Assembly: GCA_003999685.1 (NCBI GenBank)
Contig: CP021230.1
Span: forward strand, 1,302,001 to 1,366,000
DNA: 64,000 nucleotides
Direction: 5' to 3'
Origin: Taiwanofungus camphoratus
Lineage: Eukaryota > Basidiomycota > Agaricomycetes > Polyporales > Taiwanofungaceae
Shown: in pieces, positions 21,622-30,243 of the stretch
How the letters are laid out: every line of letters starts with the position of its first letter
How positions within the stretch are numbered: the stretch's first letter is position 1
Position numbers and translations under genes: made by a program
The notes under the pieces: generated by a model
Databases searched by the model: none
The model's input: the letters and a program-made list of their open reading frames with translations, nothing else
What the model was told of the DNA's origin: nothing

Positions 21622-22363
21622 CTACTTGCCATACACCTTGACGCGGTCGTCGATCGGGTTGAACTGCTTGTCTCCCGCGGGCGCGCCGGGCGTGCCGAAC
21701 GGCATCTCCGCGATGAGCTTCCACGTCGCGGGGATATTCCACTCGGCCTTGACCTTCTGGTCGATCAGCGGGTTGTAGTGCTGCCCGTGCGGAGTGAGCG
21801 GCGCACGGTCAGCATACGGGAGGGCAGACAGGCGAGGAGGCAGACGTACCTGGAGCGACGCACCGAGGCCCTCGAGCTCAAAGGCGGTCCAGATGGCGAA
21901 CTGGATCATGCCATTGGTGTGCTGCGGGCGTCAATGCGCGCGGTGAGCATCGCGCGGCAGCCACGCCGCACAGGGGAGGAGAGCGCACCTCGGCCCAGAT
22001 GGGGAACGAGTCCTGGTACAGCGGGAACTGCTTCTGGAGCCCGCGCACCGCGTCCTCGTCCTCAAAGTACAGGATCGTCCCGTACGCCGCCTTGAACGAC
22101 TCGAGCTTCTTGACCGTGGTGGGCCACTGCGCCGCGGGCGCGACGGGCTTGAGCGACTCCGCGGTGATGTCCCAGAGTCGCGCGTGGTCTGTGCGGAGCA
22201 GGACGACGACGCGGCTAGTCTGTGAGTTGAAGGAGGACGGCACGTGCAGCACGGCGTCCTTGACGATCTCTTCGATCCGCGCGTCGGGGACGGGTGAGGC
22301 GTTCGTGAGCACGTAGTACGTGCGGCGCTTCTTGATCGCCTCGAAGAACTGAGCGGATGCCAT
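21622..22363 (-). CDS. Nitroreductase-like flavoprotein, HBN1 type
   Basis: Three exons on the minus strand (22363-21989, 21921-21850, 21780-21622), separated by introns of 67 and 69 nt, give 201 residues. The protein begins MASAQFFEAIKKRRTYYVL, contains 'VPSSFNSQTSRVVVLL' (the Ser/Asn-rich FMN-binding turn of this family), 'HTNGMIQFAIWTAFELEGLG' and ends 'FNPIDDRVKVYGK'. This matches the small fungal nitroreductases related to yeast Hbn1 and Frm2, which use FMN and NAD(P)H and are linked to oxidative stress and lipid signalling. The open frame continues upstream to an ATG at 22504, adding 47 residues rich in Arg, Ala and Thr with no acidic residue, which looks like a mitochondrial presequence. 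A TATA-like motif (minus strand, about 22532-22524) lies so close to 22504 that the shorter start is favoured. The gene is followed upstream, within about 220 bp of 22504, by an inverted-repeat element. Confidence 0.88.
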
Positions 22364-22723
22364 AGTACGTTTGTGTATGTGCGCGGGCGTGCGAGCAGGG
22401 AGCGGGGCGGGGCGGAGGCGAGCGGCGAGAGAGGCGCTGGCGGTGGTGCGCTGCGTTCGGCAGACGAGGGCGGTGGCGTTGCGCAGGTACTGAACGGACG
22501 ACATGGCGCAGGACTGGATGCGGCCTTTATATCGATGATCTGGATCTGTGACCCGGTCTGTGATGGAAAGCGAGCGAACGCAGCAGAGCGATGGGTTGCG
22601 ATGGCACCAGATGCTAGCCAGAGAACGGGCGGCGCATCCGGCAGGCGAGCGCGATAAATATTCCCTCTCGCTCTGGGATCCGCGTGGGAATCGTGGTAAT
22701 AATACCTCGACAGGGCGTGCATT

Positions 22724-24671
22724 AGGACCCCTGAATATAGGTGGGGAGGCGACGTCCCAATCTGCCCAATTTTGACCAAAAATAATCGGACAGTACATAT
22801 TTCTTTTGCCCCAAAACACTCGGATTTTTCATAGCCTCATGCTTATTTTCTAAAATTTGTACAGATGCTGCCTCAGGCCTTCATTTTGCACCAATTCATC
22901 CGGATATCCAGAACAAGCCTATTTGGGCTCAATTTTTCATATGGACTGTCTGTCCTAGCATCTCCTTTACGCGACAGACATAGGGCAATCGATGAAGGTT
23001 GCATAGCCTTAACATACTTATTTAAGAATGGTCAATGCGTAGATCAATTTGGTGGGTTAACAAATCCATTCAAAGATTGGTTTCTAGACCAATCAGAGCA
23101 CAAGATTGAGATATGTGAGGCAAATTTGATAACCTTTACAAATTCTTCAATATACTGACCATATTTCAATCAATATTTTATGGCTCTTTTACCCTCACTG
23201 ATTGGGCCATGTCTGTCATGTCACCTAGATACAAAATAAGGTCATTCTAGCCTTCTGTGTTGCTTTCAGGCTTCACAGTCCTACATCTCTATTGCAGTAG
23301 CAGCAGAAACAATGAATGTAGCCTGTCTTTGGCTGAGTAGGCCTTTTCATGGCTAATCTGTCCAGAAAATTTCATATTTGCTGGAATTTCATGTTATTAG
23401 TTAGATTCATATTGACAGAAGTCTGGAGACTAATTTACAAACAGAAAATATTCAAATGATGTCTACTTTTGCTGCAGTGCTACTGAAAGCAATCCTGTAT
23501 TGTTGACCACATTTATACTGCTTTCACACTCAGTTATCCAATGTGGATGACTTAATGGCTGAAGCACTGATGACATTAGTTTTGAAACCACATCAGAAAA
23601 ACTCAAATTTACCTTGACACACTTGATGATTTTAGATGTCTTAAATAAGACATCTAAGATGAAGTAAGATCAAAAATAAGGTCTTTTTAAATAAACACTT
23701 TGCATTAACTATCTTATTTGCACTTATTTTACTTAATTAAGACAATCAAGACAATGAAGTTAAATTTGAGTTTTGCTGATACAGCCATTTGAGGCTGAAT
23801 TTTCTGACATACAGATGCTTTTGAATGTCTGATGACTTTGCCTCTATGATGTCTGGGTTGATGATATAGGTGACATCTCACCACAGAATGCAGCAGAGGA
23901 TTGGATGCTCATCACACACTCAATTACAGTACACAACATTCTTAGATAGATTTTGAACACATGTATCTTCCTCCTCAGATTTAAGGATGTCTTAGTAGAC
24001 AATCAACAAGTTTTTTGTCAGGATTGAGCACATGCTAAGCACCCAATCCTCTCTGCATTCTGCAGTGAGGTGTCACCCATGTCACTGACCCAGAAGACAT
24101 CATGGGGGAAAAGCCACCAGATGTTCAGGAGCATGTGTATACCAGAAAATTCAGCTTTAAATGGCTGGTTCTAAGACTATGATGGCATACACTGGACAGA
24201 CTTTGAGATAAGTGGAGATCCAATTAAAAGACTTCCATCTCTCAGGTACAGAAGACATGCTGAGTCCACACTGTTAGACATCCAGATGTGGACCAAGTCT
24301 TTGTCACACTCTGTAAAAAACAAAAGTTGACCTTGATCACCTTTTTGATATCAAAATTGCATAAGTTAACTAATTAGTCAAATTTCTTGCCTTTTGGTGA
24401 CTGAAGCAGTCAGCCACAAAAAAGCTGCACATCAGTCAACCTGTAGTCAGCTTGTGTGACTAATGCATGACTGTTCTGCTGAATTTGCGCAAACATTGAC
24501 TACACTTTTTTACAGAGCATCACAGATCTAACATTGCACCCAAATCTGGAATCAGGCTTCCGAGACCTTTTAGGCCAAAAACACTCGGACTACCCCTAGC
24601 CTAGGGGTCTCAAAATTCCAAAATTCATCCGGATGAGGGGCGTCGCTTCCCAACCTATAATCGGGGGTCCT
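22724..24671. mobile_element. Non-autonomous DNA transposon-like element with 35-bp terminal inverted repeats
   Basis: The left end (22724-22758) and the reverse complement of the right end (24637-24671) agree at 30 of 35 positions and share AGGACCCC at the tip and TATAGGT inside. Immediately outside are CGTGCATT (22716-22723) and GGTGCATT (24672-24679), an 8-bp target-site duplication with one mismatch. Near both ends the strings 'AACACTCGGA' and 'ATTCATCCGGAT' recur in direct orientation. The 1.95-kb body is AT-rich and has no open frame above about 100 codons, so it encodes no transposase. From 23041 to 24487 it contains no CpG dinucleotide at all. An 8-bp duplication is typical of hAT and of KDZ-type elements known in basidiomycetes; which one cannot be told from termini alone. 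It lies about 220 bp upstream of the longer start of the nitroreductase gene. Confidence 0.72.
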
Positions 24672-24679
24672 GGTGCATT

Positions 24680-28802: not shown

Positions 28803-30243
28803 CTTTCTTTCCAGACCACTATGCCCACTGTAAGCCAGTCCCTCGGAGTTTCAGTCGTATACCATCTGTACATGTATTGTTTGCATCAATAACGAAGTGA
28901 ATGCAGGAAGTTGAATTGTGTCTGGACGCCGCAAAGACCCCTGTTGTCGACATTGAAAGCCATACTGACACCTATTGACGCGAAGAAAGCCACCTAGACC
29001 TCTCTTTGACCACTTCTAGCGTTCAGTCGGTTGATCGCGAATATGATCCACTGTAGCCTGAGTGTGACCATACAAATACTCACCGGTGAGGATAATAAGA
29101 TTACTTGAGAATGAGAGACGAACAGAGGTAGGGTATTGGAAAAGGTACACACGGGGCATGAAATCAAGCAGTTCGCATGCGGATGCTACTTTCCATGTCG
29201 CTGTACAGTACTAGTAGATGTATACTTTACTCCGGAGGCCTTCAGAACATTCAATTTTCAATGCCGAGAAAACTACATAATGACTTGAAGGTAAGCGACT
29301 GGCGGAAGCTAGTGGTTGAATTACCACCGACGTCACCGGAAAAATCGATCCCCTTCGATAGCCGCTAGATTCTGTCCGTAAGAAACATTCAGTTCTTACC
29401 CCACCCAACCATTTATATTCCCCCTCTTAATTTATTCTTTAAAACCGATTGTGTAACCCCATCTGAACCTGGCCAAGCTAACAACCCACCTTTGATGCTG
29501 TTGTGTTTGAAGATTCAACTTGCTGGGCCTCAGCAGCCCTAATCTGGGTATTGCAGAGTGATCTTCAAGCAGCATGGGCTGAGGGTAGCAACTGTTTGGG
29601 CAAACATTAGAAGGAGTTGGGGTGAAAAGTGGCATCACATGATTCAAATTAGTGAAAATCTGGTTGTTTGTATGGGTTTGGCTAGACTCCACCATAAGCA
29701 TGTAGTTGCTTGAAGGAGGATAATTGAATACACACACACACACAGTAGTTACAGGTCATAAAATGGTAAAACAGCTCAATATCATTGCCTCTTTCCTTTT
29801 TCTCGGGTGCTGTCACGGGTTGGAATCACGCCAGCGGAGTATGCTGTTGACAACACGGTCCGACTATCTCTGTCCGCTTGCGAAATGTGTGCTCACATGA
29901 TCTGTGACCGTCTTGTTACGACCGGGCCTGCCGAATACGTGGTTAGAGGACCGCTAATCTCTATGCGAGGTTTGATCCCAAAATCACCGAAAATGGGGTT
30001 CTGGGAGCCAAAATACTTTATGCCAATAACCAAATTTCTTTCTGGTCCGCCGGTGGGTATTGTGAGGTGCCAAAAATCACGGAAAATGGATCCCAAACCA
30101 CCAAAGTAAGAGGTTTCCGGCCATGGAGAACCTGACCGGAGCAAGCGCCCGTTTCGACGGCCGATCATAGCTTTCTTACGTATAGGAAGGTGGCAGACAG
30201 TTTCTTGTCAACTCCTATCCCACTGGAACATTGTCCGCCAAGC
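28803..30243. other. Intergenic stretch with AT-rich insert-like segment
   Basis: No gene is seen. From 29448 to 29802 there is no CpG, and an (AC)n tract (about 29729-29744) lies near its right end, so this part looks like old mobile DNA. Between about 29975 and 30110 a motif resembling 'AAAATCACCGAAAATGG' occurs twice with small changes, suggesting another small decayed repeat. Confidence 0.45.
29729..29744. repeat. (AC)n dinucleotide microsatellite
   Basis: About eight AC units lie near the right end of a CpG-free segment. Such tails are common at the ends of retroposed fragments, but no other hallmark is visible. Confidence 0.8.

Follow-up and report, generated by a model that had tools for sequence, protein, structure and literature searches.

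How does a stretch of well over a kilobase come to hold no CpG dinucleotide at all? Across the whole stretch of DNA that we analysed, a 64-kb window of a fungal genome (G000:C11:1302001-1366000, hereafter the window), CpG was as frequent as expected (4273 CpG; observed/expected ratio, o/e, 1.00), and within it CG was absent from 23040 to 24487. The bordering CpGs, read directly from the window, start at 23038 and 24488. This CpG-free tract, to which no strand is assigned, comprises 1447 bp with 278 C and 261 G (37% GC). With such a composition, 50.1 CpGs would be expected under independence (Poisson probability of finding none, ~2e-22), and the lowest count among 2000 shuffles of the tract was 33. 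The second-longest CpG-free gap in the window measured 358 bp. A two-state model placed the CpG-poor segment at 23061-24561, with 1 residual CpG, and both TG and CA were in excess in the tract (o/e 1.53 and 1.56). A first-pass annotation of this DNA had noted that CG was missing from 23041 to 24487, that around fifty would be expected by chance and that TG/CA steps were many, and on all three points our counts bear it out. It had also described CpG as normal at the ends of the surrounding element and in the flanking DNA. This holds for the flanks, where the 500 bp outside either side of the element contained 64 CpGs vs. 46.3 expected and 53 vs. 46.4 expected, but not quite for the ends, with 9 CpGs vs. 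14.0 expected on the left (22724-23040) and 7 vs. 10.1 on the right (24488-24671).

The tract and the nest of elements around it

The 1948-bp “element” that contains the tract is, judged from its sequence, a nest in which small transposons have inserted into an outer inverted-repeat element (family A). The outer element (22724-24671, + strand) was delimited by its terminal repeats, AGGACCCC... at both ends, and by alignment to an uninterrupted copy elsewhere in the genome (L003; C4:2837952-2838591). That copy is 640 bp long and aligns to the window in five collinear blocks at 79–91% identity (22723-22967, 23222-23315, 23516-23570, 24207-24289, and 24530-24672), with the window element interrupted at four places. 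By eye, L003 is flanked on both sides by GCGAATCT (8/8), and the window element is flanked by the 8-bp repeats CGTGCATT and GGTGCATT, which are identical at 7 of 8 positions. From the terminal inverted repeats and the 8-bp target duplication, the outer element is probably a non-autonomous, hAT-like DNA transposon. The longest open reading frame wholly within it reaches at most 97 aa, and none of the 9 hAT dimerisation-domain matches in the genome was linked to outer-element ends. By eye, the outer element starts ~360 bp upstream of the first ATG of a nitroreductase-family gene, the 5′ part of which lies at 21878-22360 on the minus strand (open reading frame and profile match to PF00881, E 1.2e-09).

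We searched for the inserted families with the window against the genome (33.19 Mb in 15 contigs), listing the best candidates, and found that inserts B, C, D, and E recur across contigs. Insert B (22973-23217, + strand; genome matches, boundaries by eye) is a small inverted-repeat element running from GACAGACAT... to ...ATGTCTGTC; its query (22968-23222) gave 48 listed match rows, a count that includes the query's own locus and, for some loci, a second fragment. An insert of ~200 bp (23316-23515, no strand assigned) was recognised from genome matches and from the alignment to L003, where it has no counterpart; among the matches listed, its 3′ part alone matches another place (C13:1233655). 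Insert C (23588-23781, + strand), an AT-rich small element defined by genome matches and copy alignment, adjoins insert D (23782-24180, no strand assigned), a long foldback with copies on other contigs and with inverted repeats that include 73 nt at 81% and 42 nt at 81%. The joint C and D query gave 49 listed match rows, again with the query's own locus and some second fragments included. Insert E (24309-24517, + strand; genome matches, boundaries by eye) is a small element with 12-bp terminal repeats CTCTGTAAAAAA, and its query (24290-24530) gave 42 listed match rows, own place included. Target duplications of the inner inserts were sought by eye in the window, and none was convincing. As a separate observation, the foldback of insert D could give a hairpin RNA and so a possible trigger of silencing.

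The tract begins on the left within insert B (CpGs at 22990 and 23038, then none) and ends on the right within insert E (first CpG at 24488), and the CpG-poor domain between these edges spans the core of the outer element and its inserts together. Because the edges fall within two different inserts, the CpG-free domain coincides with no single element, and it was a domain rather than one element that was hit. Of the 7 L003 CpGs that fall in the outer element's left arm, 2 persist in the window, with 4 now TG or CA and 1 changed otherwise; conversely, 2 of 5 window CpGs in this arm are TG in L003. In the right arm, all 6 CpGs are common to the window and L003. Therefore, partial erosion on the left makes the edge less abrupt than the first-pass annotation had described.

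CpG retention among copies of the same families

We aligned copies of at least 150 bp (at least 90 bp for family C) from fetched loci after removal of duplicates, which gave 21 copies of B and 31 of E, and took the consensus CpG sites of these two families from copies lying outside CpG-poor tracts. Copies within tracts had kept few of these sites (6/41 in nine copies of B and 5/49 in six copies of E), whereas copies outside had kept most of them (39/49 in 12 copies of B and 137/195 in 23 copies of E). Two further E copies, in short tracts, kept 3/18. Summed over both families, 11/90 CpGs (12%) survived inside tracts vs. 176/244 (72%) outside, a comparison that is partly circular because tract status depends in part on the elements' own CpG loss. 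Substitution at A/T sites, which serves as a rough clock, was 3.6% in tracts vs. 4.5% outside for B and 5.2% vs. 6.0% for E, and the two sets of copies thus amount to a natural experiment at similar A/T-site divergence. In a repeat of the comparison that is free of the circularity, copies were classed by the 300 bp of flanking DNA beyond a 25-bp guard, with flanks of o/e <0.2 counted as CpG-poor. Copies with CpG-poor flanks kept 5/36 sites in B and 5/41 in E, compared to 40/54 and 140/221 in all other copies. Retention increased with flank CpG clearly in B (Spearman 0.79) and weakly in E (0.35, P 0.05).

Still, some copies had lost most of their CpGs though both flanks had an o/e of at least 0.5, namely, four E copies (L067, 0/8 kept; L057, 1/9; L065, 2/9; L053, 2/8) and one B copy (L038, 1/5). 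A CpG-poor neighbourhood is therefore not required, and single elements can be hit too. In two of these E copies, the extent of the loss could be followed against CpG-normal flanks: in L067, the CpG-poor segment (1492-1788) begins at the element (match 1501-1693), and in L057, the segment (1503-1687) begins and nearly ends with it (match 1501-1712). Both segments suggest targeting confined to the element.

Lost CpGs had nearly always become TG or CA, and both outcomes occurred among copies at 14 of the 14 consensus sites scored in B and E, indicating that the losses were independent and followed insertion. The same change was seen in the core of the outer element, where all 5 aligned L003 CpGs are TG or CA in the window. 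L003 is not itself an uneroded standard, as its core carries 6 CpGs vs. 12.3 expected, while the window core is CpG-free. For families A, B, and E, the alignments thus show that the elements carried CpGs and lost them in place, by C-to-T change on either strand and independently at each locus. For each of these three families, copies elsewhere bear CpGs at positions that read TG or CA in the window, and we reject an origin without CpGs for them. The first-pass annotation had called for such an alignment of copies, and it turned out that the copies are not all CpG-free and that their CpG differences are C-to-T or G-to-A. By contrast, its suggestion that one CpG-free unit had been inserted into another element finds no support, since the tract comprises the outer element's core and several inserts, and three of the families (A, B, and E) are found elsewhere with CpGs. 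Families C and D give no ancestry test, because all 5 C copies examined (at least 90 bp) were CpG-free and the single other D copy examined (in L002) was CpG-poor, with 4 CpGs vs. 20.7 expected.

C-to-T change outside CpG was also about twofold higher in tract copies (B, 0.067 vs. 0.039; E, 0.078 vs. 0.037), and more than half of this excess came from the window copies. The window copies of B (22973-23217) and E (24309-24517) showed non-CpG C-to-T at 14/85 and 14/76 sites, above other copies and across CpC, CpT, and CpA. This excess possibly marks an older subfamily or weak non-CpG methylation.

CpG-poor tracts and methyltransferases in the genome

We extended the two-state segmentation to 265.6 kb, consisting of the window and 63 element-matching loci, a biased sample in which tract frequency is inflated. 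From 71 element-matching loci, 7 duplicates (L014, L026, L031, L032, L033, L035, and L051) were left out, as was L001, which lies within the window; L014, 54 kb from L013 and with the same match, was treated as a segmental duplicate. Loci L047 and L050, with matches ~0.6 kb apart, overlap and were both kept, so that ~2.5 kb is double-counted, and neither appears in the tract list. L072 and L073, which cover a methyltransferase gene, were left out of the segmentation. CpG-poor tracts of 150 bp or more numbered 41 in the sample and totalled 27.6 kb, with 59 CpGs vs. 1056 expected; the 21 tracts of at least 400 bp covered 23.4 kb and held 39 CpGs vs. 884 expected. In these 21 tracts, CG o/e was 0.04 vs. 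0.97 outside and TG/CA o/e was 1.43 vs. 1.14, while the drop for every dinucleotide other than CG was at most 0.07, and GC and CC showed no depletion equal to that of CG. TA was unchanged (o/e 0.78 in tracts vs. 0.77 outside), CA was raised, and tracts of at least 250 bp had a GC content of 33–44%. In addition, AG/CT was raised in the 21 longer tracts (o/e 1.20 vs. 1.01 outside), which CpG-to-TpG change does not predict.

The longest CpG-free tract, in L009, runs for 2242 bp. Among the matches listed, repeats cover ~490 of these 2242 bp (75-156, 663-879, and 991-1180), and part of the depleted DNA there may be single-copy or may have decayed too far for a match. The window itself holds a second CpG-poor tract at 29395-29796 (no strand assigned), with 1 CpG in 402 bp; it belongs to a repeat family, with 33 match rows listed including its own place. 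Retention differed by sequence context without a consistent direction, at 89/142 for TCG and 56/112 for ACG in E and at 5/20 for TCG, 29/52 for ACG, and 11/17 for CCG in B. Residual CpGs in the 21 tracts of at least 400 bp, counted on both strands, comprised 33 TCG, 18 ACG, 13 GCG, and 14 CCG. These counts speak against RIP-like mutation at TpCpG, as in Pucciniomycotina, under which TCG would be lost most; no consistent TCG preference was found, on few sites.

CGA-to-TGA is the sole change by which a CpG transition yields a stop codon, whereas Neurospora-type mutation of CpA would yield TAA and TAG. Among the best 150 of 419 RVT_1 matches, tallied by hand from a list biased to intact copies, 28 contained stops, of which 31 were TGA, 2 TAG, and none TAA, a predominance of TGA as CGA-to-TGA predicts. 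The remaining 122 were stop-free, many with one open length (1403 or 1336 aa). Two small sets showed no bias to TGA: Tet_JBP matches carried 2 TGA and 3 TAG, in 3 of 11 matches, and hAT matches carried 1 TAG, in 1 of 9.

Five matches to PF00145 (C5-methylase) were found in the genome, namely, two of DNMT1 type, one of DNMT5, one of DNMT2, and one unclassified (C3:1507100). At C3:3.12 Mb, a DNMT1-RFD domain (22.8 bits), a BAH domain (36.8 bits), a second BAH domain below the cut-off (20.5 bits), and a C5-methylase look like one DNMT1-type gene by their order and position, and the best solved relatives of this gene are DNMT1. The C5-methylase-bearing gene at C5:0.19 Mb matches chain 7r76_A (E 7e-90 and 4.5e-40), labelled “DNA repair protein Rad8” in the PDB, which we take to be the Cryptococcus DNMT5 structure, and by this match the gene is DNMT5-like. 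The match at C1:0.488 Mb is DNMT2-like. No RID-type gene was recognised among the five, C3:1507100 being unclassified. Predicted enzymes of the CpG type, that is, DNMT1 with RFD and BAH domains and DNMT5, are thus present in the genome, and DNMT1 and DNMT5 are described as the main pair in Basidiomycota (PMC7862722). Judged from this pair, the fungus is most likely a basidiomycete.

Explanations for the CpG loss and their precedents

In our view, the tract is most probably the mutational scar of CpG methylation over a nested transposon cluster, followed by deamination. The cluster would be held as heterochromatin, with CpG methylation laid down and copied there by the genome's DNMT1- and DNMT5-type enzymes. 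Methylation would spread over the cluster and stop near its flanks, and each methylated CpG would deaminate to TpG or CpA until essentially none remained. Such a course would explain the CpG specificity, the loss on both strands, the independence of copies, the domain-like edges, and the enzyme set. C-to-T change was concentrated at CpG and affected both strands, with the weaker non-CpG rise alongside. Relative to A/T-site substitution (minus ln retention/substitution), CpG decay was ~50-fold in tracts and ~6-fold outside, figures that are rough because the consensus was built from copies outside tracts and the tracts themselves had been picked for their low CpG. Methylation of CpG alone leaves the excess of non-CpG C-to-T change in tract copies unaccounted for. 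Heterobasidion parviporum carries some non-CpG methylation too (PMC7074731), and methylation of this kind would fit the rise if our organism is related. The first-pass annotation had offered CpG methylation and deamination or a CpG-restricted RIP-like process, and this pair gains support from the CpG-bearing copies and their C-to-T/G-to-A differences.

More tentatively, CpG erasure might act on chromatin domains, such that a nest of short elements, each below the presumed length for classical RIP, forms a mutational domain in which CpG loss runs at tens of times background, with borders inside elements and similar-age copies elsewhere losing CpGs several times more slowly. We regard this broader proposal as possible but doubtful. 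If it is true, CpG loss is a record of past heterochromatin borders.

The alternative that comes nearest to methylation and deamination is a CpG-restricted RIP-like process, by which sexual cycles would bring bursts of mutation to duplicated elements in place of slow deamination. The almost total CpG loss would suit it, and CpG-biased C-to-T change has been termed RIP or RIP-like in other basidiomycetes (PMC4457147, PMC4014442), but we consider it improbable here. The 122 stop-free sequences among the best 150 of 419 RVT_1 matches, many sharing one open length, argue that young duplicates are not generally destroyed. B (~245 bp) and E (~209 bp), with copies mostly 70–85% identical, fall below the length and identity limits for Neurospora RIP. 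Moreover, copies in normal flanks, though duplicated, mostly retain the greater part of their CpGs (L067, L057, L065, L053, and L038 excepted), and a RID-type gene was not recognised among the five PF00145 matches, with C3:1507100 unclassified. Two observations speak against Neurospora-type RIP itself. Its CpA preference is contradicted by raised CA, unchanged TA, and 0 TAA with 2 TAG among 33 stops, and recent duplicates are not generally mutated, given the same 122 stop-free matches from a list biased to intact copies.

There is very little chance, in our assessment, that the tract is a simple pile-up of inserted families which lacked CpGs from the outset or derive from a CpG-poor source. 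The CpG-free C copies (5/5 examined) and the CpG-poor D copy (4 vs. 20.7 expected) would agree with such an origin, but the CpG-bearing copies of A, B, and E, whose CpG sites read TG or CA in the window, do not, and the outer element's core is CpG-free in the window but holds 6 CpGs in L003. Slimmer still is the chance that selection or local composition bias (AT drift or CpG avoidance) removed the CpGs. Tracts of at least 250 bp are indeed AT-rich (33–44% GC), but CG o/e falls from 0.97 to 0.04 with no other dinucleotide down by more than 0.07 and with TG/CA up. These loci would allow the two foremost processes, slow deamination of methyl-cytosine and CpG-directed RIP, to be tested against each other.

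CpG depletion through methylation and deamination is familiar from methylated vertebrate repeats. Compared to these, the depletion here is deeper (tract o/e 0.04), patchy, and adjoins CpG-normal DNA. CpG-biased decay of basidiomycete transposons is already published, and this locus offers a further, clean case of it. In basidiomycetes with a Masc2/DNMT1-class enzyme, Amselem et al. (2015; PMC4352252) reported a CpG C-to-T signature in transposons, and our genome resembles those they describe in its CpG-only transition signature in transposons and its RFD-BAH type DNMT1 gene. Where their account scores copies genome-wide in three basidiomycetes, ours resolves the loss to a nested cluster whose edges fall within elements and sets it against copies of the same families. 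In Ganoderma sinense, transposons are described as showing CpG-biased “RIP” with CpA as second target, in a genome with CpG methylation (PMC4457147); the transposons and the CpG target are alike here, but there is neither a deficit of CA nor an excess of TA. Heterobasidion parviporum shows a CpG-to-TpG polymorphism bias, with CG methylated more than other contexts (PMC5870257, PMC7862722, PMC7074731); that bias was described between isolates and genome-wide, with repeats left by the authors for further analysis. CpG hypermutation has also been reported in Rhizoctonia (PMC4014442) and repeats with high CpG methylation in Marasmius (PMC9674265). A literature search for CpG-free nested elements did not find this exact layout described. 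What the locus adds is resolution, in that the elements are nested, copies of similar age serve as internal controls, and the edges fall within elements. CpG content can serve as a fossil record of where a fungus kept methylated heterochromatin.

Finally, the 11 Tet_JBP matches in the genome represent dioxygenases (e.g., C11:845168), and fungal Tet_JBP genes are described as often lying near DNA-transposon genes and as acting on methylcytosine (PMC12730594).
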